Source: Candidatus Muproteobacteria bacterium (GTDB lineage: Bacteria; Pseudomonadota; Gammaproteobacteria; Acidiferrobacterales; Sulfurifustaceae). Taken from it: 8,369 bases of DNA. The stretch is taken from positions 1-8,369 of the forward strand of contig JAHFQD010000065.1 of assembly GCA_023266455.1 (NCBI GenBank). The letters run 5' to 3'. This document shows, piece after piece, positions 2-8,369 of the stretch. The notes below the pieces were generated by a model. It saw only the letters and a list, made by a program, of their open reading frames with translations, was not told the DNA's origin and searched no databases. Numbering within the stretch: the stretch's first letter is position 1; every line of letters starts with the position of its first letter. A program made the translations under genes and the position numbers.

Positions 2-1282
2 AGCACCGGCGAGCGCTGTACCGAGCAATTACTGTTGCGCGGACTTTATTACGCCATCGTTGACGAGGCCGACAGCATCCTCGTCGACGAAGCGCGCACG
101 CCGTTGATCCTGGCGGGTCCGGCTAAAGATCACGGACTCACCCAGCACTACCAGCAAGCGCTGTGGCTCGCCGAACAACTGCAATCCGGCAGCGAGTTCA
201 CGCTGAACGAAACGGCGCGACACGTCGGCTTGTCCACCGCCGGCGTACGCCGGCTAGCGGAGATCGCCAGTCCGCTCGGGGGACCGTGGACGAACGCGCG
301 CAAACGCGAAGCGCTGGTGGAACAAGCCTTATCGGCACGACATCTGTTTCAGCGCGATCGGCATTATTTAGTGCGCGAAGGACGTGTCGAAATCATCGAC
401 GAACACACTGGCCGCACCATGCCGGATCGATCCTGGGAACAAGGTCTACATCAAATGATCGAGATCAAAGAAGGACAAACGCCGAGCTCACAACACGAAC
501 CGCTCGCACGCATCAGCTATCAACGTTTTTTTCAACGCTACCTACGCGTGGCCGGTATGTCGGGAACGATGCATGAAGTGCGTGCTGAACTGCGCAGCGT
601 TTACGGCTTGCATGTGGTGCGCATACCGCGGCATCGCCCCAGCCGGTTACGCATGAGCGGCGCGCATTACTTCCGGCGCGCCGCGGATAAATGGATCGCC
701 ATCGTGCGCGCCATCGAACGCGAACGCGCGAGCGGCCGGCCGGTGTTGGTCGGCACGCGCACCTTGGCGGATTCGGAGCATCTCAGTGCGTTGTTAAAAC
801 AAGCGAACGTACCGCATCAGTTGCTCAACGCGCGGCAAGACGCGGAAGAAGCCGCCATCGTCGCGCGCGCCGGCGAAGCGCAGCAGATTACGATCGCGAC
901 CAACATGGCGGGACGCGGAACCGACATCCCGTTGACCGAAGCCGTCATCGCGCGCGGCGGGTTGCATGTTATCTTATGCGAGCACAACGACTCGCGCCGC
1001 GTCGATCGCCAACTCATCGGCCGCTGCGCGCGCCAAGGCGATTCCGGCAGCTACGAGATATTCGGTTCGAACGAAGACGAAATTATCCGCGTGCGTCTCG
1101 GCGGATGGACCCTGCGACTGGCGCGCGGCGTTTCGCCAACGCTGCCGAGCTGGTTGGGCGCGCTGCTGGCGCGGTTCGCCCAAGAACTCGCCGAAAGTAA
1201 TCATCGGCGCTTGCGGCGAGCGCTGCTGCGCGACGACGAACAACGCGATGAACGCATGGCGTTTTCGGGACGCGCGGAATAA
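2..1282 (+). CDS. Accessory SecA-like translocase ATPase, 5' end missing, short C-terminus
   Basis: SecA is the cytoplasmic ATPase that drives preproteins through SecYEG. The frame is already open at base 2 and stops at TAA 1280-1282, so the start and Walker A lie left of the window; the TTG at 35 is internal. Visible SecA hallmarks, in order: motif II DEAD followed by SILVDEARTPLI (62-103), a shortened preprotein-binding region, DEHTGRTM (398-421), a GMSGT segment near 560, the second motor domain with PVLVGTRTLADSEHL, motif V NMAGRGTD (902-925) and motif VI RQLIGRCARQGD (1007-1042). The last residues (ESNHRRLRRALLRDDEQRDE) align with the start of the long scaffold helix of E. coli SecA, then the protein stops. 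Most of the helical scaffold, the helical wing and the zinc-binding tail are therefore absent. About 426 residues are visible; by comparison with E. coli SecA roughly 200 are missing at the N-terminus, giving about 630. Intact motor motifs argue against a pseudogene. Membership of the SecA family is certain; an accessory role is inferred. Confidence 0.93.
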   Translation, partial: STGERCTEQLLLRGLYYAIVDEADSILVDEARTPLILAGPAKDHGLTQHYQQALWLAEQLQSGSEFTLNETARHVGLSTAGVRRLAEIASPLGGPWTNARKREALVEQALSARHLFQRDRHYLVREGRVEIIDEHTGRTMPDRSWEQGLHQMIEIKEGQTPSSQHEPLARISYQRFFQRYLRVAGMSGTMHEVRAELRSVYGLHVVRIPRHRPSRLRMSGAHYFRRAADKWIAIVRAIERERASGRPVLVGTRTLADSEHLSALLKQANVPHQLLNARQDAEEAAIVARAGEAQQITIATNMAGRGTDIPLTEAVIARGGLHVILCEHNDSRRVDRQLIGRCARQGDSGSYEIFGSNEDEIIRVRLGGWTLRLARGVSPTLPSWLGALLARFAQELAESNHRRLRRALLRDDEQRDERMAFSGRAE

Positions 1283-1316
1283 CTCGCTCTTCGCAAACAA
1301 CAACTATTATCTGTAT

Positions 1317-2081
1317 ATGCCCGTGAACACCGAAACGACGGCTTCGACCGAAAAAGCGCGGCTGCGCATTGTCGCCGCGGCGTTGGTGTTCCTCATCGCC
1401 ATCGACGGCCACGCAGCGCCGTTAGCGGAGTTCGAAGCCCTCATCGAGCCCTACACCACCGTCGAGCTGCGCAGCCCCGTCGAAGGCGTCATCGAATCAC
1501 TGTCGGTGGATCGCGGCGATACGGTCAAACAAGGACAGGAACTAGCGAAACTACGCGCGGACGTGGAAGACGCCGCGCTCGCGATCGCAACGTCCAAAGC
1601 CGAATACGACAAACGCAAACAAACACGCGCGCGCCAACTCTATTCCGAGCAGGCGATTCCCTTTAGCGAAAAAGACGAAGCCGACGCCACCGCACGCTCC
1701 AGCGAGCTTCAGGCGCGTCACGCGCGTGAAACCTTAAACCTTCGCACCATTCGCAGCCCGATCAACGCCGTCATCGCCGAGCGCTATTTGTCGCCCGGCG
1801 AATCGGTCAAAGACAAAACCATCCTCAAATTGGTGCAGCTCAACCCGCTTCGAATCGAAGTGGTATTGCCAGCGACCTTATTCGGACAAATTCAGAAAGG
1901 GACGAACGCCGAAGTTCGATCCGAGTTGGGCGCGATCGGGACCCTAAAAGCTCAAGTAACCGTGGTGGATAAAGTCATCGACGGCGCCAGCGGTACCTTC
2001 GTCGTACGGCTCGAAATACCCAACCCCGAACACGCCATTCCCAGCGGTTTGCGCTGCAAAGTGCGCTTTCTAGTCAATTAA
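1317..2081 (+). CDS. Small periplasmic adaptor (membrane fusion) protein, HlyD/RND type
   Basis: The 254-residue product resembles periplasmic adaptor subunits that link an inner-membrane transporter to an outer-membrane channel. Residues 13-33 look like a signal peptide: basic KARLR, hydrophobic IVAAALVFLIAI, then DGHA with likely cleavage near A33/A34. The first half of a lipoyl-like domain follows (about 49-80, with SPVEGVIESL and RGDTVKQGQ). A short helical hairpin rich in charged residues spans about 81-143. The second lipoyl half is TIRSPINAVIAERYLSPGESV (144-164), and a beta-barrel region reaches the C-terminus. The hairpin is far shorter than in type I HlyD proteins. ATG 1317 was chosen because it puts the signal peptide at the N-terminus; the frame is open further upstream but there it overlaps the SecA-like gene. 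GTG 1323 is an alternative, and no clear Shine-Dalgarno is seen. The gap to the SecA-like gene is 34 bases with no terminator, so cotranscription is likely. No partner transporter or channel lies in the window. Confidence 0.88.
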   Translation: MPVNTETTASTEKARLRIVAAALVFLIAIDGHAAPLAEFEALIEPYTTVELRSPVEGVIESLSVDRGDTVKQGQELAKLRADVEDAALAIATSKAEYDKRKQTRARQLYSEQAIPFSEKDEADATARSSELQARHARETLNLRTIRSPINAVIAERYLSPGESVKDKTILKLVQLNPLRIEVVLPATLFGQIQKGTNAEVRSELGAIGTLKAQVTVVDKVIDGASGTFVVRLEIPNPEHAIPSGLRCKVRFLVN

Positions 2082-2328
2082 AGGTATCTAGGCACATTCG
2101 ACCGTATAGGGTTAATCCCACCCCCGACGATGAGCCGAAAGTAAAAGTTCGACAAGCGAAATAACGTGAAATCCCCTGTTTTTCCTTATTTTTTTTCACC
2201 GTCGTCTCGAAAAAACTAAATCTTCACCTTTATCAGCGGGTTATCGAAATGGCCCGCTTCTTGAAGCTTCTTGGTGAATATCTGGGGCTAGTATTTGTTG
2301 AATAGCCTAAAGCGCCGTCGTGAGCCTA
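2082..2328. other. 247-base intergenic region before the giant gene
   Basis: No gene is supported here. The stretch is clearly AT-richer than the coding DNA on either side, with T-runs (2176-2196) and A-runs (around 2210-2215). Visible elements are a GTGAAA/TTTCAC inverted repeat (2166-2171 and 2194-2199) around a 22-base loop, a GCGGG/CCCGC inverted repeat (2236-2240 and 2253-2257) around a 12-base loop, and a GAAGCTTC palindrome (2263-2270). None forms a convincing intrinsic terminator with a GC stem followed by a T-run. Its size and composition fit a separate promoter and leader for the giant gene, so that gene may be expressed independently of the two upstream genes. This is inference. 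Confidence 0.6.
2250..2265 (+). promoter_or_regulatory. Weak sigma-54-like promoter candidate
   Basis: TGGCCC, five bases, then TTGAA resembles the sigma-54 -24/-12 pattern (TGGCAC-N5-TTGCA). It has the GG of the -24 element at the right spacing but lacks the usual GC of the -12 element (GA instead). It lies about 64 bases upstream of the start codon. No convincing sigma-70 pair with a 16-18 base spacer was found in the same region. The match is imperfect and could be chance. Confidence 0.18.
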
Positions 2329-2331
2329 ATG
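2308..2331 (+). promoter_or_regulatory. Start region of the giant gene
   Basis: An in-frame TAA at 2308-2310 limits the possible starts to GTG 2320 or ATG 2329. ATG 2329 is preferred because GTGAG (2320-2324) can serve as a weak Shine-Dalgarno four bases before it, while nothing purine-rich precedes GTG 2320. The two choices differ by only three residues (V-S-L). Confidence 0.5.
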
Positions 2332-5300
2332 CCTGATAAAAAGCAAAAGGGGCGCAGGGAAGCTATTTACTCGGTGGGATCCGGACCCGTATTCGAAGAG
2401 CTCGAATCGCGCTTACTGCTTTCCGCTGATGTAGCCGGGGCAGTGGCAGATCCGACGCCCGTCGTCGAGCCCGCCGTCATTCAACAAGCCGAACTTCAAT
2501 CGCCCCCCGCCGTCACCCAACCCGCCAGCACCGCCGCCGCCGTCGAAAGCCGTAAAGAACTCGTCCTCATCGATCCACGCGTCAGCGATTATGGTCAGTT
2601 CGTATCCGATCTCCTCACCCCGCGCTCGGATGGACGCGAGATCGAAGTCGTCGTGCTCGATCCGGCACGCGACGGCATCCAGCAAGTCACCGACGCGCTC
2701 GCGAATCGCAACGATCTCTCCGCCGTGCACCTGATCTCGCACGGTGCCGCCGGTTCATTCGACCTCGGCAACACACAACTGAACTTCGAGTCACTGCTCG
2801 CCAACGCCACCGCCATCAAACAATGGGGCAACGCGCTCACCGACGACGCGGACTTCATGCTCTACGGATGCGATATCACCGCGACGTCCGAAGGACAATC
2901 ATTGGTCGCCGCGCTGAGCCGTCTCACCGGCGCCGACGTCGCGGCGAGCGACGACGTGACCGGTCAACAAGTGTTGGGCGGCGACTGGTTGCTCGAAACA
3001 CAAACCGGAACGATCGAAACCGCCATCGCACCCAGCGCGCAGTTGCAAGCGAACTGGATGGGCACACTCAATGTTTCCGCCCAAGGCGGCGAGACCTTGG
3101 TCAATACCACGACCGCCAACGTGCAGGACACCTCGAACAACGGCCGGCAAGCCAATCAAGTCGCGATGGACGCCAACGGCAACTACGTCGTCGTGTGGCG
3201 CAGCGATGCGCAAGACGGCGACGGTTGGGGTATTTACGCGAAGCGCTTCAACAGCGCCGGCGTTGCGCAGGGCGGCGAATTCCGCGTCAACACCACGACC
3301 GTCGACAATCAGACTTTTCCCTCCGTCGCGATGGACGCCAGCGGCAACTTCGTCGTCACCTGGGCAAGCTTAAACCAAGACGGTAGCTCTACCGGCGTCT
3401 ACGCACAGCGTTATAACGCCTCGGGTGTGTCGCAAGGCAGCGAGTTCCGCGTCAATACCACGACCGCGAATATCCAAGACGATCCTGCTATCGCGATGAG
3501 CGCGAGCGGCAGTTTTGTCATTGTCTGGGACAGCTCCAATCAAGACGGCGATCAATTCGGTGTGTACGGACAACGCTACAACGCCGCCGGTGTCGCTCAA
3601 GGCGGCGAATTCAGAATCAACACCACCACCTTGAATACCCAAGACGACGTCACCGTCGCCATGGATGCCAGCGGTAACTTTGTCGCCGTCTGGGAAAGCC
3701 ACGATCAGGACGGCAGCGGGGATGGCATCTATGGACAGCGCTACAACGCCGCCGGCGTCGCCCAAGGCGGCGAATTCCTAATCAATACGGAAACGAGTAA
3801 CGAGCAAACGCTGGCCAGCGTTTCGATGAACGCCACCGGCGACTTTGTCGTCGCGTGGCAAAGCTTGCTGCAGGATGGCGACAGCTGGGGTATCTACGCC
3901 CAGCGCTATAACAGCGCCGGCGTCGCGCAAGGCAGCGAGATGCTCATTAACGTCGACACGGTCGGCGCACAAGATAATCCCAACGTCACGATGCGTTCTT
4001 CCGGCGGTTTCATCGCGACGTGGCGAGGTTACACCGACGGCGATGGCACCGGCATTTATATGCGCGAGTTCGGCGCGTCGGGCAACGCCATCACCGGCGA
4101 GGTTCAAGTCAACACGACGACCACCAATGACGAGCTCGGCGTCAGCGCCGCGATCGACAACAATGGACATCTCGTCGTGGTATGGAGCGGTAGCGGGAGC
4201 GGCGATACCGACGGCGTGTTCATGCAACGCTATAACGTCAACTCCGCGCCGGTGATCACGTCCAATGGCGGCGGGGTCGTCGCTAATATCTCGCTCGCCG
4301 AAAATACCGCGATGATCACCACCGTAACGGCTACCGACGCCGACGCCAACACGCTCACCTATTCCATCATCGGCGGCGGCGATATCAATTTCTTCGCCAT
4401 CAACAGCGTCACCGGCGTGCTGACGTTCGCCTCGACGCCCAATTTCGAAGATATCCGCGACGCCAACGCCGACAACATTTACCAAGTCGCGGTTGTCGTG
4501 TCCGATGGACACGGTGGCGTCGATAATCAAATCATCAACGTCACCATCACCGGCACCAACGACGCGCCGGTGATCATTCCCAGCGAAGTGCGGGTGAATA
4601 CAACCACCACTAATTCGCAGGAAACCGAATATCAGCATCGCGAAGTAACGATGGACAGCAACGGCAATTACGTCGTCGTGTGGATCAGCAACGCGCAAGA
4701 CGGTAGCGGCTACGGTATCTACGCGCGGCGTTACGACACCGGCGGCACGGCGCAAGGCGGCGAGTTCCGCGTCAATACGACGACCGCGAACAACCAACGT
4801 AATCCATCCATCGCGATGGACACCAACGGCAATGTCGTAATCGTGTGGGAAAGCTTGGCGCAAGACGGCAGCGGCTGGGGTATTTACGGGCAGCGTTATA
4901 ACAGCGCCGGCGTCGCGCAGGGTGGCGAGTTCCGCGTTAACACCGCCACGGCGAGCGACCAGGACGACGCGGCGGTGGCGATGGACGCCAGCGGCAATTT
5001 CGTCGTCACGTGGCGCAGCGTCGCGCAGGACGGCGACGGTTACGGTATCTACGCGCAGCGTTACAACGCCTCGGGTGTGGCGCAAGGCAGCGAGTTCCGC
5101 GTCAATACCACGACCGTGAACGATCAAGAGACGCCCTCCATCGCCATGGATGCGGCCGGCAACTTCGTCATCACCTGGCATAGTGATGCCCAAGATGGAA
5201 ACGACTTAGGCGTGTTCGCTCAGCGTTACAACAGCAGCGGCGTCGCCCAAGGCGGCGAATTCCAGGTCAACACCACGACATTGGATTCACAAAGCGACAC

Positions 5301-8300
5301 TTCGATCGCGATGAATAGCAGCGGTTTTGTCATCACGTGGATGAGTTACGTTCAAGATTCGGTGAACTCCTATGGAGTTTACGGACAGCGCTACAACGCC
5401 GCCGGCGTCGCGCAAGGCGGCGAATTCCAGATCAACACCACGACGATGTACGACCAAGAAGCGCCGGTGGTGGCGATGCGGCCCTCCGGCGGCTTCGTCG
5501 TCGTCTGGAGCAGCGACGGACAAGACGACGATTCTTCGTACGGCATCTTTATGCGCGAGTACGATGCCAGCGGCAACGCGCTGACCGGCGAGATCCTCGT
5601 CAACACCACCATCCCTAACGATCAAATCCACGCGAGCGTCGCGGTCGACGACAATGGCCACCAAGTCGTCGTGTGGAGCGGTAACGGTACCGGCGATGCC
5701 TCGGGCGTTTTCATGTACAACCCCTCGGTCGTCATCGCCGAAAACACCACCGCCGTAAAAACCATCGTGGCGACCGATCAAGATCTGCCGGCGAACACGC
5801 TCACCTACTCTATTGCCGGCGGCGCCGACGCCGCGCGCTTCACCATCAATTCATCCAGCGGCGCTTTGAGTTTCAGCGTCGCGCCCGACTACGACACGCC
5901 GGGCGACGCCAACGCCAACAATATTTACGAAGTCATTGTGCAGGTCTCCGACGGCAACGGCGGCACCGACACGCAGTCGATCATCGTCACCGTCACGGAC
6001 GTCGCCGACAACTCGGCGCCGGTGCTAACGCCGATCAGTCCGACCTTACCCACCATTACCGAAGACGACGTCACGAATACCGGCGTACAAGTCTCGACCT
6101 TGCTCGGCAGTGGCTCAATCACTGCGCAGGGATCTGAGACGCGGGTAAATAGCACGACCAGCAACACGCAAGAAACCACGCCATACGACGGCGCCAAACG
6201 CCAGGTAGCGATGGACGCCAATGGCAACTACGTCGTCGTCTGGCAAAGTAATACGCAAGACGGCAGCGGTTGGGGCATCTACGCGCAACGCTACAACGCT
6301 TCGGGTGTTGCCCAAGGCGGCGAATTTAGAGTCAACACCACGACCGCGAACGATCAAGAATTCGCCGCCATCGCAATGGACCCGAGCGGCAATTTCGTCG
6401 TTACCTGGCAAAGCCTCGGTCAAGACGGCAGCGGCGCGGGCATCTACGCCCAACGCTATAACGCCGCCGGCGTCGCCCAAGGCGGTGAGTTTAGAGTCAA
6501 CACCACGACCGCCGGCGAGCAGCAAGAAAGCGCTATCGCGATGGACGCCAGCGGCAACTTCGTCATCACCTGGCAAAGCAACGGCCAAGACGGCAGCGAT
6601 TGGGGCATCTATGGCCAACGCTACAACGCCGCCGGTGTCGCCCAAGGTAGCGAGTTCCAAGTCAACACGAACACCTTCGAAGACCAAGCCGACAGCGCTA
6701 TCGCCATGGACGCCAGCGGCAACTTTGTGGTCGTGTGGGAAAGCCTCGATCAAGACGGCAGCGACTACGGCATTTACGGGCAGCGCTATAACAGCGCCGG
6801 CGTCGCCCAAGGCGGCGAGTTCTTGGTGAACACCTTTACTACCGGCACGCAAGCCGAAAGCGCCGTCGCCATGGATGCGAATGGCAACTTCGCCGTGGTA
6901 TGGGTCAGTCACGGCCAAGACGGCAGCGGCGCGGGTATCTACGGTCAGCGTTACAACGCTTCCGGCGTAGCCCAAGGCAGTGAATTCCAAGCCAGCGTCA
7001 CCACCGCCAACGACCAACGCGATCCGATGATCGCAATGCGTCGCTCCGGCGGATTCTTCGTCGCGTGGGAAGGCGATCTCCAAGACGGCAGCGGTACTGG
7101 GGCCTACGTGCGTCAGTTCGACGCGAGCGGCAACGCGATCACCGGCGAAGTGCTGCTCAACACAACGACCTCGGGCAACCAGTACAACCCAGGCGTCGCC
7201 GTCAATGACGGCGGACGTCTCGTCGCCATCTGGAGCGGCAACGGCCCCGGCGACGCCGACGGCGTCTTCACACAACGCTTCCGTTACTCCTCGGTCGCCG
7301 ATGCCGATGTCTATGCGCTCCAAGGCGTGGCCATCACCAGCGCGGCATCTCCGCAGTGGCAATACTCCACCGACGGCGGCAGTTCTTGGAACGCTATCGG
7401 CACAGTGTCGAATACCAGCGCTTTGTTATTGCGCAGCGCCGACCGCGTGCGCTTCGCCCCCGACTCGGCGAACGGCGACAGTCAGTCGCTGACCTTCCGC
7501 GCTTGGGATCAAACGTCGGGGACCGTGGGCACCAAGGTCGACGTGTCCACCAACGGCAACCCGACGGCGTTCTCCACCGCGACCGACACCGCCTCGATTA
7601 CCGTCACGGCGGCGAACGACGCGCCGATATTGACTGCGCGCAATCCCACCCTGCCGACAATCACCGAAGACAACGTCGCGAATAGCGGCACGTCCGTGTC
7701 ATCGCTGCTCGGCGGCGGATCGGTTAGCGCGCAAGGCGGCGAGACGCGAGTGAACACATTCACCGCCGGCCTTCAAGAAACCACGAACGACGACGCGTCG
7801 AGACGCCAAGTTGCTGTAGATGCCAACGGCAATTTCGTCATCGTGTGGGAGAGCATGAGCCAAGACGGCGATAACCGGGGCGTCTACGCACAACGCTATA
7901 ACGCCGCTGGCGTCGCGCAAGGCAGCGAGTTCCGCGTCAACACCTACACCACGAACGATCAGTCGTATTCAACCGTCGCGATGGATGCCAGCGGCAACTT
8001 TGTCGTCGTCTGGAATAGTTACGGCGAGGACGGCAGCAACTTCGGTATTTACGCACAACGCTATAACGCCGCCGGCGTCGCGCAAGGTGGTGAGTTCCGC
8101 GTCAACACCTTCACCACCGGCATCCAGAGCGAAGGCTCTATCGCGATGAACGCGAGCGGCAATTTCGTGATCGTCTGGACCAGCAATGGCCAAGACGGCG
8201 ACGGCGATGGCGTCTATGGCCAACGCTACAACGCCGCCGGCGTCGCCCAAGGCGGCGAGTTCCGCATCAATACCACTACCGTGGATGAACAAGACGATGC

Positions 8301-8369
8301 TTCCGTCGCGATCGACGCCAGCGGCAATTTCGTCGTCACGTGGGAAGCGATGAACCAAGACGGCGACGG
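2329..8369 (+). CDS. Giant LEPR-XLL/DUF4347 protein with tandem seven-unit propeller blocks, 3' end missing
   Basis: One frame is open from ATG 2329 to the window edge, giving 2013 residues with no stop. Order: basic N-terminus (1-21); LEPR-XLL-like motif (22-34); Pro/Ala-rich linker (35-75); DUF4347 (about 76-247); repeat block 1 (255-636); cadherin-like domain (637-743); block 2 (753-1131); most of a second cadherin-like domain (1132-1226); first part of an Ig-like domain (1229-1264); block 3 (1270-1652); rest of that Ig-like domain (1653-1762); start of another copy (1765-1799); block 4 (1805 to the edge). There is no ordinary hydrophobic signal peptide and no RTX nonapeptide in the visible part. 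Families with this N-terminus are usually very large surface or secreted proteins, so the role is probably extracellular adhesion or binding; the ligand is unknown. The SecA-like ATPase and adaptor upstream may export it. The reading frame is certain, the function is inferred. Confidence 0.95.
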   Translation, partial: MPDKKQKGRREAIYSVGSGPVFEELESRLLLSADVAGAVADPTPVVEPAVIQQAELQSPPAVTQPASTAAAVESRKELVLIDPRVSDYGQFVSDLLTPRSDGREIEVVVLDPARDGIQQVTDALANRNDLSAVHLISHGAAGSFDLGNTQLNFESLLANATAIKQWGNALTDDADFMLYGCDITATSEGQSLVAALSRLTGADVAASDDVTGQQVLGGDWLLETQTGTIETAIAPSAQLQANWMGTLNVSAQGGETLVNTTTANVQDTSNNGRQANQVAMDANGNYVVVWRSDAQDGDGWGIYAKRFNSAGVAQGGEFRVNTTTVDNQTFPSVAMDASGNFVVTWASLNQDGSSTGVYAQRYNASGVSQGSEFRVNTTTANIQDDPAIAMSASGSFVIVWDSSNQDGDQFGVYGQRYNAAGVAQGGEFRINTTTLNTQDDVTVAMDASGNFVAVWESHDQDGSGDGIYGQRYNAAGVAQGGEFLINTETSNEQTLASVSMNATGDFVVAWQSLLQDGDSWGIYAQRYNSAGVAQGSEMLINVDTVGAQDNPNVTMRSSGGFIATWRGYTDGDGTGIYMREFGASGNAITGEVQVNTTTTNDELGVSAAIDNNGHLVVVWSGSGSGDTDGVFMQRYNVNSAPVITSNGGGVVANISLAENTAMITTVTATDADANTLTYSIIGGGDINFFAINSVTGVLTFASTPNFEDIRDANADNIYQVAVVVSDGHGGVDNQIINVTITGTNDAPVIIPSEVRVNTTTTNSQETEYQHREVTMDSNGNYVVVWISNAQDGSGYGIYARRYDTGGTAQGGEFRVNTTTANNQRNPSIAMDTNGNVVIVWESLAQDGSGWGIYGQRYNSAGVAQGGEFRVNTATASDQDDAAVAMDASGNFVVTWRSVAQDGDGYGIYAQRYNASGVAQGSEFRVNTTTVNDQETPSIAMDAAGNFVITWHSDAQDGNDLGVFAQRYNSSGVAQGGEFQVNTTTLDSQSDTSIAMNSSGFVITWMSYVQDSVNSYGVYGQRYNAAGVAQGGEFQINTTTMYDQEAPVVAMRPSGGFVVVWSSDGQDDDSSYGIFMREYDASGNALTGEILVNTTIPNDQIHASVAVDDNGHQVVVWSGNGTGDASGVFMYNPSVVIAENTTAVKTIVATDQDLPANTLTYSIAGGADAARFTINSSSGALSFSVAPDYDTPGDANANNIYEVIVQVSDGNGGTDTQSIIVTVTDVADNSAPVLTPISPTLPTITEDDVTNTGVQVSTLLGSGSITAQGSETRVNSTTSNTQETTPYDGAKRQVAMDANGNYVVVWQSNTQDGSGWGIYAQRYNASGVAQGGEFRVNTTTANDQEFAAIAMDPSGNFVVTWQSLGQDGSGAGIYAQRYNAAGVAQGGEFRVNTTTAGEQQESAIAMDASGNFVITWQSNGQDGSDWGIYGQRYNAAGVAQGSEFQVNTNTFEDQADSAIAMDASGNFVVVWESLDQDGSDYGIYGQRYNSAGVAQGGEFLVNTFTTGTQAESAVAMDANGNFAVVWVSHGQDGSGAGIYGQRYNASGVAQGSEFQASVTTANDQRDPMIAMRRSGGFFVAWEGDLQDGSGTGAYVRQFDASGNAITGEVLLNTTTSGNQYNPGVAVNDGGRLVAIWSGNGPGDADGVFTQRFRYSSVADADVYALQGVAITSAASPQWQYSTDGGSSWNAIGTVSNTSALLLRSADRVRFAPDSANGDSQSLTFRAWDQTSGTVGTKVDVSTNGNPTAFSTATDTASITVTAANDAPILTARNPTLPTITEDNVANSGTSVSSLLGGGSVSAQGGETRVNTFTAGLQETTNDDASRRQVAVDANGNFVIVWESMSQDGDNRGVYAQRYNAAGVAQGSEFRVNTYTTNDQSYSTVAMDASGNFVVVWNSYGEDGSNFGIYAQRYNAAGVAQGGEFRVNTFTTGIQSEGSIAMNASGNFVIVWTSNGQDGDGDGVYGQRYNAAGVAQGGEFRINTTTVDEQDDASVAIDASGNFVVTWEAMNQDGD
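2392..2430 (+). other. LEPR-XLL-like N-terminal motif
   Basis: Residues 22-34 read FEELESRLLLSAD, close to the F-x-x-LEPR-x-LLSAD motif found at the N-terminus of many giant bacterial repeat proteins. The proline of LEPR is serine here. It follows a basic segment (KKQKGRR, residues 4-10) and precedes a low-complexity Pro/Ala/Val linker. Its place at the very N-terminus, without a classical signal peptide, suggests a targeting or processing role; the motif itself is clear, the role is inferred. Confidence 0.82.
2554..3069 (+). other. DUF4347 domain
   Basis: Residues 76-247 match the DUF4347 pattern as remembered: KELVLIDPRV opening, EIEVVVLDPARDGIQQ, DLSAVHLISHG, a QWGNALTDDADFMLYGCDI segment, LTGADVAASDDVTG, GGDWLLE, and the closing ANWMGTL. 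The family sits near the N-terminus of large secreted repeat proteins. Its biochemical activity is not established. Conserved-looking His138 (in LISHG) and Cys181 (in LYGCD) are worth noting. Confidence 0.85.
3091..4236 (+). repeat. Repeat block 1: seven 55-residue units, probable beta-propeller
   Basis: Residues 255-636. The consensus unit is AMDASGNFVVVW, then QDGSG-x-GIY-x-QRYN, A-GVAQGGEF and RVNTTT. The core Trp falls at residues 290, 345, 400, 455, 510, 565 and 619, a spacing of 55, 55, 55, 55, 55 and 54. Units 6 and 7 differ from the rest: unit 6 has MRSSGGF and ASGNAITGE, unit 7 has DNNGHLVVVWSGSGSGD and no trailing EF-RVNTTT strand. A lone GGETLVNTTT strand precedes unit 1, as expected if the ring closes by pairing the two ends. 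The seven-fold count and the ends are seen; the propeller fold is inferred. Confidence 0.8.
4237..4557 (+). other. Cadherin-like domain 1
   Basis: Residues 637-743. It opens NSAPVITSNGG and continues with SLAENTAMITTVTATDAD, LTYSI, FFAINSVTGVLTF, NFEDIRDANADNIYQV, VSDGHGGVDNQ and INVTITGTNDAPV. The AEN, DAD, DANADN and final ND motifs are typical Ca2+ ligands of bacterial cadherin-like domains. It joins block 1 to block 2 and probably rigidifies the fibre when calcium is bound. Confidence 0.8.
4585..5721 (+). repeat. Repeat block 2: seven units, probable beta-propeller
   Basis: Residues 753-1131. The core Trp falls at 785, 840, 895, 950, 1004, 1060 and 1116. Unit 5 lacks one residue before its core strand (MNSSGFVITW, no Asn after Gly) and has an altered loop (QDSVNSYG in place of QDGSGWG). 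Unit 6 carries MRPSGGF and ASGNALTGE, and unit 7 VDDNGHQVVVWSGNGTGD, like the same units of block 1. Unit 7 ends at GVFM and runs straight into the next cadherin-like domain without the usual QRYN. The leading strand is EVRVNTTTTN. Confidence 0.8.
5722..6006 (+). other. Cadherin-like domain 2, first strand displaced
   Basis: Residues 1132-1226: VVIAENTTAVKTIVATDQD, NTLTYSI, ARFTINSSSGALSF, YDTPGDANANNIYEV, VSDGNGGTDTQ, IIVTVTDV. The calcium-ligand motifs match those of domain 1. The usual opening strand (APVITSNGG in domain 1) is missing here; a similar NDAPVI (residues 744-749) stands just before block 2 instead. This suggests that block 2 is inserted near the start of this domain. Confidence 0.75.
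6013..6120 (+). other. Ig-like 'WQYSTDGG' domain, N-terminal part
   Basis: Residues 1229-1264: SAPVLTPISPTLPTITEDD, then TGVQVSTLLGSGSI. This is the start of an Ig-like domain common in giant bacterial surface proteins, in which it normally continues directly into a D-D-x-x-ALEGIAIT segment. Here the sequence breaks off into repeat block 3, and the continuation appears at 7285. A related start recurs at residues 1765-1799. Confidence 0.7.
6136..7284 (+). repeat. Repeat block 3: seven units, probable beta-propeller
   Basis: Residues 1270-1652. This is the most regular block: the core Trp falls at 1305, 1360, 1415, 1470, 1525, 1580 and 1635, exactly 55 apart throughout. Unit 6 has MRRSGGF and ASGNAITGE, unit 7 has VNDGGRLVAIWSGNGPGD and ends GVFTQRF without the last strand. 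The leading strand is SETRVNSTTSN. It lies between the two parts of an Ig-like domain. Confidence 0.8.
7285..7614 (+). other. Ig-like 'WQYSTDGG' domain, C-terminal part
   Basis: Residues 1653-1762: SVADADVYALQGVAITSA, WQYSTDGGSSWNAIG, NTSALLLRSADRVRFAPD, LTFRAWDQTSGTVGTKVD, STATDTASITVTAANDAP. It completes the domain started at 6013. ADADVYALQGVAIT corresponds to the segment that normally follows LLG-x-x-I directly. Confidence 0.72.
7621..7725 (+). other. Second Ig-like domain start, apparently also interrupted
   Basis: Residues 1765-1799: APILTARNPTLPTITEDN, then SGTSVSSLLGGGSV. It closely matches residues 1230-1264 and again leads directly into SAQGGETRVNT and a repeat block. The remainder of the domain would be expected beyond the window after block 4. 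Confidence 0.65.
7741..8369 (+). repeat. Repeat block 4: first four units, cut by the window edge
   Basis: From residue 1805 to the edge. The core Trp falls at 1840, 1895, 1950 and 2005, exactly 55 apart; the fourth unit breaks off after QDGD. The leading strand is GETRVNTFTAG. If the pattern of the earlier blocks holds, three more units follow, the last two with the unit 6 and unit 7 signatures. Confidence 0.78.

Follow-up and report, generated by a model that had tools for sequence, protein, structure and literature searches.

What does a giant bacterial protein build when its 55-residue repeat comes in groups of seven? The question is raised by a stretch of 8,369 nucleotides (the window), which is the entire contig C92 (JAHFQD010000065.1) of the draft genome G000 of a Candidatus Muproteobacteria bacterium. 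Most of it is taken up by a frame on the plus strand (2320-8367, 2016 codons) that is still open at the contig end. We regard it as probable that its repeat blocks, at least four with three complete sevens among them, form the closed propellers predicted for them, and that the exported giant presents these propellers outside the cell, spaced by cadherin-like domains, as binding discs for adhesion or matrix building.

Seven units to a block

Core tryptophans at residues 293-622, 788-1119 and 1308-1638 mark out three complete blocks of seven units each, as a preliminary description of this DNA had counted. A fourth block shows tryptophans 1843, 1898, 1953 and 2008 before the contig ends; the description's claim of at least four propeller blocks thus stands for three complete ones and a fourth visible in part. 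Its claim of a 55-residue spacing nearly without exception is borne out by 17 of the 21 within-block spacings and fails in the one-residue slips of block 2 (54, 56, 56); over all blocks there are two spacings of 54 and two of 56. Tryptophan pairs 54-56 residues apart number 21; in 10,000 random placements their number averaged 1.75 and never exceeded 9. The strand pattern at the block ends also agrees with the description: all four blocks have an orphan VNTTT-like strand ahead of unit 1 (residues 259, 757, 1274 and 1809), and the EF-RVNTTT strand is absent after unit 7 in all three complete ones.

Scored with a unit profile made from 24 of their own number, the 25 units of the window reach 54-89 bits. 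Likeness between units that hold the same position in different blocks is higher (0.63) than between other pairs (0.51; permutation p 0.0002), and therefore the blocks look as though they were duplicated as whole sevens. Units 6 and 7 are the most distinct, and the sequences of blades 2 to 5 could almost be swapped for one another. The parts of the gene, with residue numbers for the protein, are as follows.

2320 to 8367, plus strand: giant protein gene, open at the contig end (open frame; start GTG at 2320 or ATG at 2329, from the start-region sequence)
2389 to 2454, plus strand: LEPR-XLL segment, residues 24-45 (NCBIfam NF012209, 22.5 bits against a cut-off of 17)
2560 to 3069, plus strand: DUF4347 domain, residues 81-250, predicted caspase fold (Pfam PF14252, 180.9 bits; model and fold matches)
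3079 to 4239, plus strand: propeller block 1, seven units, residues 254-640 (unit profile and tryptophan positions; boundaries approximate)
4246 to 4578, plus strand: cadherin-like domain between blocks 1 and 2 (boundaries approximate; weak, below-cut-off match to Pfam Cadherin_CELSR2_9th at residues 664-731; matches to cadherin-23 in PDB)
4582 to 5724, plus strand: propeller block 2, seven units, residues 755-1135 (unit profile and tryptophan positions)
5725 to 5994, plus strand: Cadherin domain, residues 1136-1225 (Pfam PF00028 over cut-off; matches to protocadherin-15 in PDB)
6115 to 7296, plus strand: propeller block 3, seven units, residues 1266-1659 (the block used for the structure model)
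7297 to 7719, plus strand: spacer between blocks 3 and 4 (sits between unit arrays; no best stretch of a Pfam match falls there)
7720 to 8367, plus strand: propeller block 4, four units, cut by the contig end (unit profile and the four tryptophans given above)

Predicted fold and the nearest solved structure

A confident structure model of block 3, one of the two blocks that the preliminary description had named for prediction (as residues 1265-1655), aligns over its full length with known seven-bladed propellers. Together with the seven units found in every complete block, these matches lead us to predict that each complete block is a closed seven-bladed beta-propeller. In the model the last unit consists of three strands of its own and a separate strand opens the block (residues 2-10 of the model, ITAQGSETR), so that the strand ahead of unit 1 is predicted to complete the three-stranded last unit. 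The proposal of a seven-bladed propeller is thereby supported by the model and its ring matches, and the strand order fits the velcro closure proposed with it; the fibre that the description saw in such a chain is a conjecture.

By a wide margin, the solved structure closest to the block 3 model is the propeller of CylK (C-terminal beta-propeller with Tyr473 and Asp440, PDB 7fh8 and 7roo), which shares the fold at an identity of 16%. Two family profiles, searched against PDB at E up to 10, returned no CylK chain, nor did two single divergent members; the CylK sequence itself was not used as a query. Kinship with CylK accordingly rests on structure. The setting of the propeller also differs: CylK has a single one fused to an N-terminal calcium-binding domain, whereas the window protein has several, set between DUF4347 and cadherin-like domains.

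Is the number always seven?

Of 120 proteins selected by their likeness to block 3, 106 show exactly one seven-unit array each. Twelve of the other 14 were read individually, and P0025 and P0036 (7 + 2) were left unread. The arrays longer than seven in P0001, P0007, P0043 and P0050 lose the loop motif after the seventh unit; P0004, P0011 and P0024 can be read as sevens whose ends are cut or garbled, P0100 counts seven units, and P0040, P0047 and P0086 are cut or frame-shifted. Because a set chosen by block 3 may be biased towards seven, a second set of 120 giant proteins was selected with the window protein's LEPR-XLL/DUF4347 region instead. Arrays occur in 25 of these giants, and 27 of their 28 arrays have seven units; in the remaining one (P0162) the seventh unit scores 2.0 bits.

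Genome loci fetched for comparison contributed 99 arrays, of which four are cut by the sequence end. A further 38, uncut but with no more than four units each and mostly from divergent planctomycete frames, were left out because the unit model did not resolve them. Seven units were found in 49 of the remaining 57 uncut arrays of five or more units, a count in which one array of the same-family genome G009 entered twice (L006, L071) and some genomes are near-identical. Some exceptions are readily read as sevens: the eight of L042 is a seven with one split unit, and the fourteen of L037 is a seven, a linker and a seven. The thirteen of L063 makes two sevens only if a sub-threshold end stretch is counted as a unit; the six of L049 probably hides one unit, and the five of L069 is the remaining short array. 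A sister repeat, AMDxxGNAVAVW...NIWANRY...GWG, occurs in genome G020, of the same order, at residues 1418-1827 and 2109-2538 of L072 and 728-1142 of L073.

Under a stricter filter, with arrays of three or more units counted, seven is the size of 28 of 46 LEPR-group arrays and 125 of 164 others, the smaller sizes being partly losses caused by the filter. The seventh blade reads SGNG-sGDsdGVFmQRY in the 28 LEPR-group arrays and not in the 125 others. This motif is perhaps a contact face special to the giants.

A common family outside the named propellers

The preliminary description recognised no named propeller family and found Asp-box and SBBP repeats to fit poorly. The Pfam searches agree, with no match in the window protein to Asp-box, SBBP, NHL, WD40 or FG-GAP at E up to 1; the same repeat families are absent from the 23 Pfam families matched by 34 propeller-family members at E up to 0.01. 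The NCBIfam delta-60 repeat is matched by one of the 34. Pfam rows for CopC, herpesvirus glycoprotein B and GH43 were set aside as chance or, for GH43, generic propeller likeness, since no stretch passes alone; CopC passes on the whole protein (34.6 bits, cut-off 23.3) and on block 3 alone (25.6), in short pieces only. The nearest NCBIfam model, NF053835 (PDIAV motif-containing lipoprotein), matches 23 of the 34 members at E up to 0.01 (best 7.1e-17) and gives a window block 30.4 bits, below its curated cut-off of 90. To judge from the name of the model, its lipoproteins share with the window family a repeated motif before the core strand. No solved relative was found by sequence with the family profiles.

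Block 3 is matched by at least 6169 proteins at E up to 0.001, out of 7983 candidates scored. The loci that carry such blocks belong to planctomycetes, cyanobacteria, acidobacteria, Bacteroidota, Nitrospirota, Proteobacteria, one Thermoplasmata archaeon and others. Proteins of about 400-450 residues that hold a single propeller and little else are common among these relatives. The tree of blocks is poorly resolved, with good support for five of 31 inner branches and for none around the window blocks; by path distance, the latter lie nearest each other and the blocks of G009. As the fold itself was already known, the novelty lies in the family and its carrier: the family is unnamed and very common, and the solved structure closest to it is, unexpectedly, that of an enzyme; the carrier is tied to a gene cassette for which no description was found.

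The carrier protein

The window protein, more than 2016 residues long, belongs to the LEPR-XLL giants by its N-terminal segment, which it shares with them at a score over the cut-off of the model. A Vibrio giant of this group, of about 8000 residues, is described with RTX and serralysin domains (PMC10868602); the window giant carries propellers instead.

The DUF4347 domain that follows was modelled with a mean predicted local distance difference test score (pLDDT) of 90.3, and the model matches Tce1, CHAT proteases and caspases in fold. Designed TIM barrels, which in the PDB sequence search scored as the DUF4347 entry itself did, were unlisted in the fold search and were dropped. Across 25 DUF4347 sequences Cys109 is invariant and His66 nearly so; by pattern count, Gly-Cys occurs in all 25 and the His-Gly motif in 20. 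DUF4347 is thus predicted to have a caspase fold (clan CD) with a His/Cys dyad, and on the strength of this fold and of the conserved residues it may process the giant protein. DUF4347 may be the CPDadh family. A family of that name is cited in PMC2900308, and self-processing has already been proposed for the caspase-like domains of large surface proteins (PMC3482391). Tce1 (PDB 9qpe), termed a putative cysteine protease (PMC13323088), is 16% identical to DUF4347; it is a small effector associated with the type VI secretion system, whereas DUF4347 stands at the start of a giant protein.

The G009 orthologue P0129, named as a protein of a gammaproteobacterial metagenome-assembled genome, has 2849 residues and three sevens, and its C-terminal part shows a hydrophobic stretch with a charged tail behind it. 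Of the 120 giants of the second set, some of which are fragments, 43 have a hydrophobic motif of the type VGYVLWLLRGG...SLLSSLPAWR..DPLPVL close to the C-terminus (P0124, P0129, P0155, P0191 and others). This motif could serve for membrane anchoring or as a sorting signal.

The upstream gene cassette

Two genes precede the giant gene on the same strand.

2 to 1282, plus strand: SecA-like ATPase gene, 5' part missing at the contig start (Pfam SecA_DEAD, SecA_PP_bind and P-loop_SecA)
1317 to 2081, plus strand: HlyD-type periplasmic adaptor gene (Pfam HlyD_D23 and HlyD_3; start codon placed by eye, stretch scanned 1305-2081)
Conserved cassette: window 2-2081; L071 (G009) 12939-19999; L025 (Zoogloea) 2932-9323; contig C311 of G000 (L118)

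In both G009 and Zoogloea the order is GAF-HlyD, M50/PqqD-HlyD, SecA-like, HlyD and giant protein. In G000 an M50-HlyD gene lies on contig C311, with an HlyD-like gene before it and a frame that by eye resembles a SecA start. The M50 match is weak, at 25.0 bits against a cut-off of 27.2 in G009 and with none listed in the Zoogloea locus; the HExxH motif is present in all five sequences compared. Linkage to the giants was counted with strong M50-HlyD matches, defined by E below 1e-50 and in some cases made up of pieces. These occur in 21 of 29 genomes with DUF4347 and in one of 20 without it (Fisher p 1.9e-6). The 29 are G009 and 28 of the 31 genomes positive in the DUF4347 screen, G130, G151 and G325 having been left out for weak or partial DUF4347; the 20 are part of the 243 genomes that had no match in that screen. 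Eight further genomes lacking a DUF4347 screen were left out, two of which (G030 and G034) have a strong M50-HlyD match. In nine of the 21 genomes the M50-HlyD and DUF4347 giant genes lie at most 10 kb apart on one contig.

The cassette of GAF-HlyD, M50/PqqD-HlyD, SecA-like and HlyD genes may be a dedicated export route. No description of it was found in the literature searched, most subscription papers being outside the reach of that search.

Directly 3' of the giant gene in Zoogloea stands a PAS-GGDEF gene (L025 17734-19284), a neighbour that would suit cyclic di-GMP control. Upstream of the window's giant gene, the stretch TGGCCCGCTTCTTGAA at 2250-2265 resembles a sigma-54 site, judged by what we take to be the consensus. 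The pattern matches once against 0.07 expected, and 14 of 200 shuffles contain a match. We make no use of this site because none was found upstream of the orthologue in G009.

What are the propellers for?

We propose the following course of events. The giant protein would be exported via the linked SecA-like, M50-HlyD and HlyD proteins, putatively processed near its N-terminus by the caspase-fold DUF4347, and anchored through a C-terminal hydrophobic segment of the kind seen in the orthologue. Calcium may sit between the blades as in CylK. The groups of seven, read as closed rings, suggest a string of binding discs held out from the cell, a row of propellers whose putative role would be to bind ligands and not to catalyse. 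A precedent is BapP, a biofilm adhesin of Pseudoalteromonas tunicata, which likewise combines a predicted propeller with cadherin-like sandwich domains in a single large secreted protein. BapP has one five-bladed propeller of 226 residues at its N-terminus and a proposed Type 1 export (PMC12153261); the window giant differs in its several seven-bladed propellers and its SecA-like/HlyD cassette.

Several observations weigh against this reading. No binding site was found. The fold model covers block 3 alone, and because its coordinates were not inspected, ring closure is inferred from the strand order and the full-length matches to closed rings. The end of the giant protein lies beyond the contig, which is why its anchor is taken from the orthologue. 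A strong M50-HlyD match is missing in eight of the 29 DUF4347 genomes. By our criterion 95 of the 120 DUF4347 giants have no such propeller, which makes the propeller an optional part of these giants. Finally, the number seven has its exceptions: nine units follow one another in the fragment P0083 with no clear break, and three full arrays of the divergent sister type in L072 and L073 have a real eight. Seven is therefore the mark of this family and not of a wider superfamily, and the strictness claimed in the preliminary description holds within the family and lapses in the eight-unit sister type of G020.

It is conceivable, if unlikely, that the propellers are instead rigid spacers that lengthen a stalk, with the binding activity in the C-terminal region beyond the contig. 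The near interchangeability of blades 2 to 5 would suit such a role, as would the alternation of propellers with cadherin-like domains, which have been described as adhesin extender domains (PMC12153261). The small single-propeller relatives, however, are hard to square with a pure spacer, and blades 6 and 7 stand apart from the rest and are conserved throughout the LEPR giants. We consider it very unlikely that each propeller is an enzyme domain akin in function to CylK, forming bonds with alkyl halides or a similar substrate. The wide margin by which CylK is the closest solved structure speaks for this, but CylK needs Arg105 of its N-terminal domain in addition to Tyr473 of the propeller (PMC8916777, eLife 2022), whereas the domains ahead of the window's propellers are DUF4347 and cadherin-like ones and not a calcium-binding domain with the catalytic arginine; moreover, a string of near-identical blocks and blades would hardly resemble a single shaped active site. 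An open solenoid or separate beta-sandwiches, with the sevens an accident of duplication in this lineage, would fit the high likeness and even spacing of the units, but can be dismissed given the confident model with its full-length matches to closed rings, the recurrence of seven across phyla and in an independently chosen set, and the break after the seventh unit in several longer arrays.

Binding discs presented outside the cell thus remain our preferred reading. More tentatively, and with the odds against it, we suggest that a very large uncatalogued family of bacterial and archaeal seven-bladed surface propellers is the stock of the CylK alkylating enzymes, and that proteobacteria string several such propellers on giants exported by an undescribed SecA-like/M50-HlyD/HlyD route, with a caspase-fold domain trimming the cargo.

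Most of these repeat proteins pass as hypothetical because there is no curated propeller model for them. Their predicted fold and fixed blade number now make thousands of proteins from many phyla readable, and place the propeller of the enzyme CylK beside a family of likely surface proteins. The carrier, in turn, brings into view a conserved set of genes by which giant proteins may be exported.
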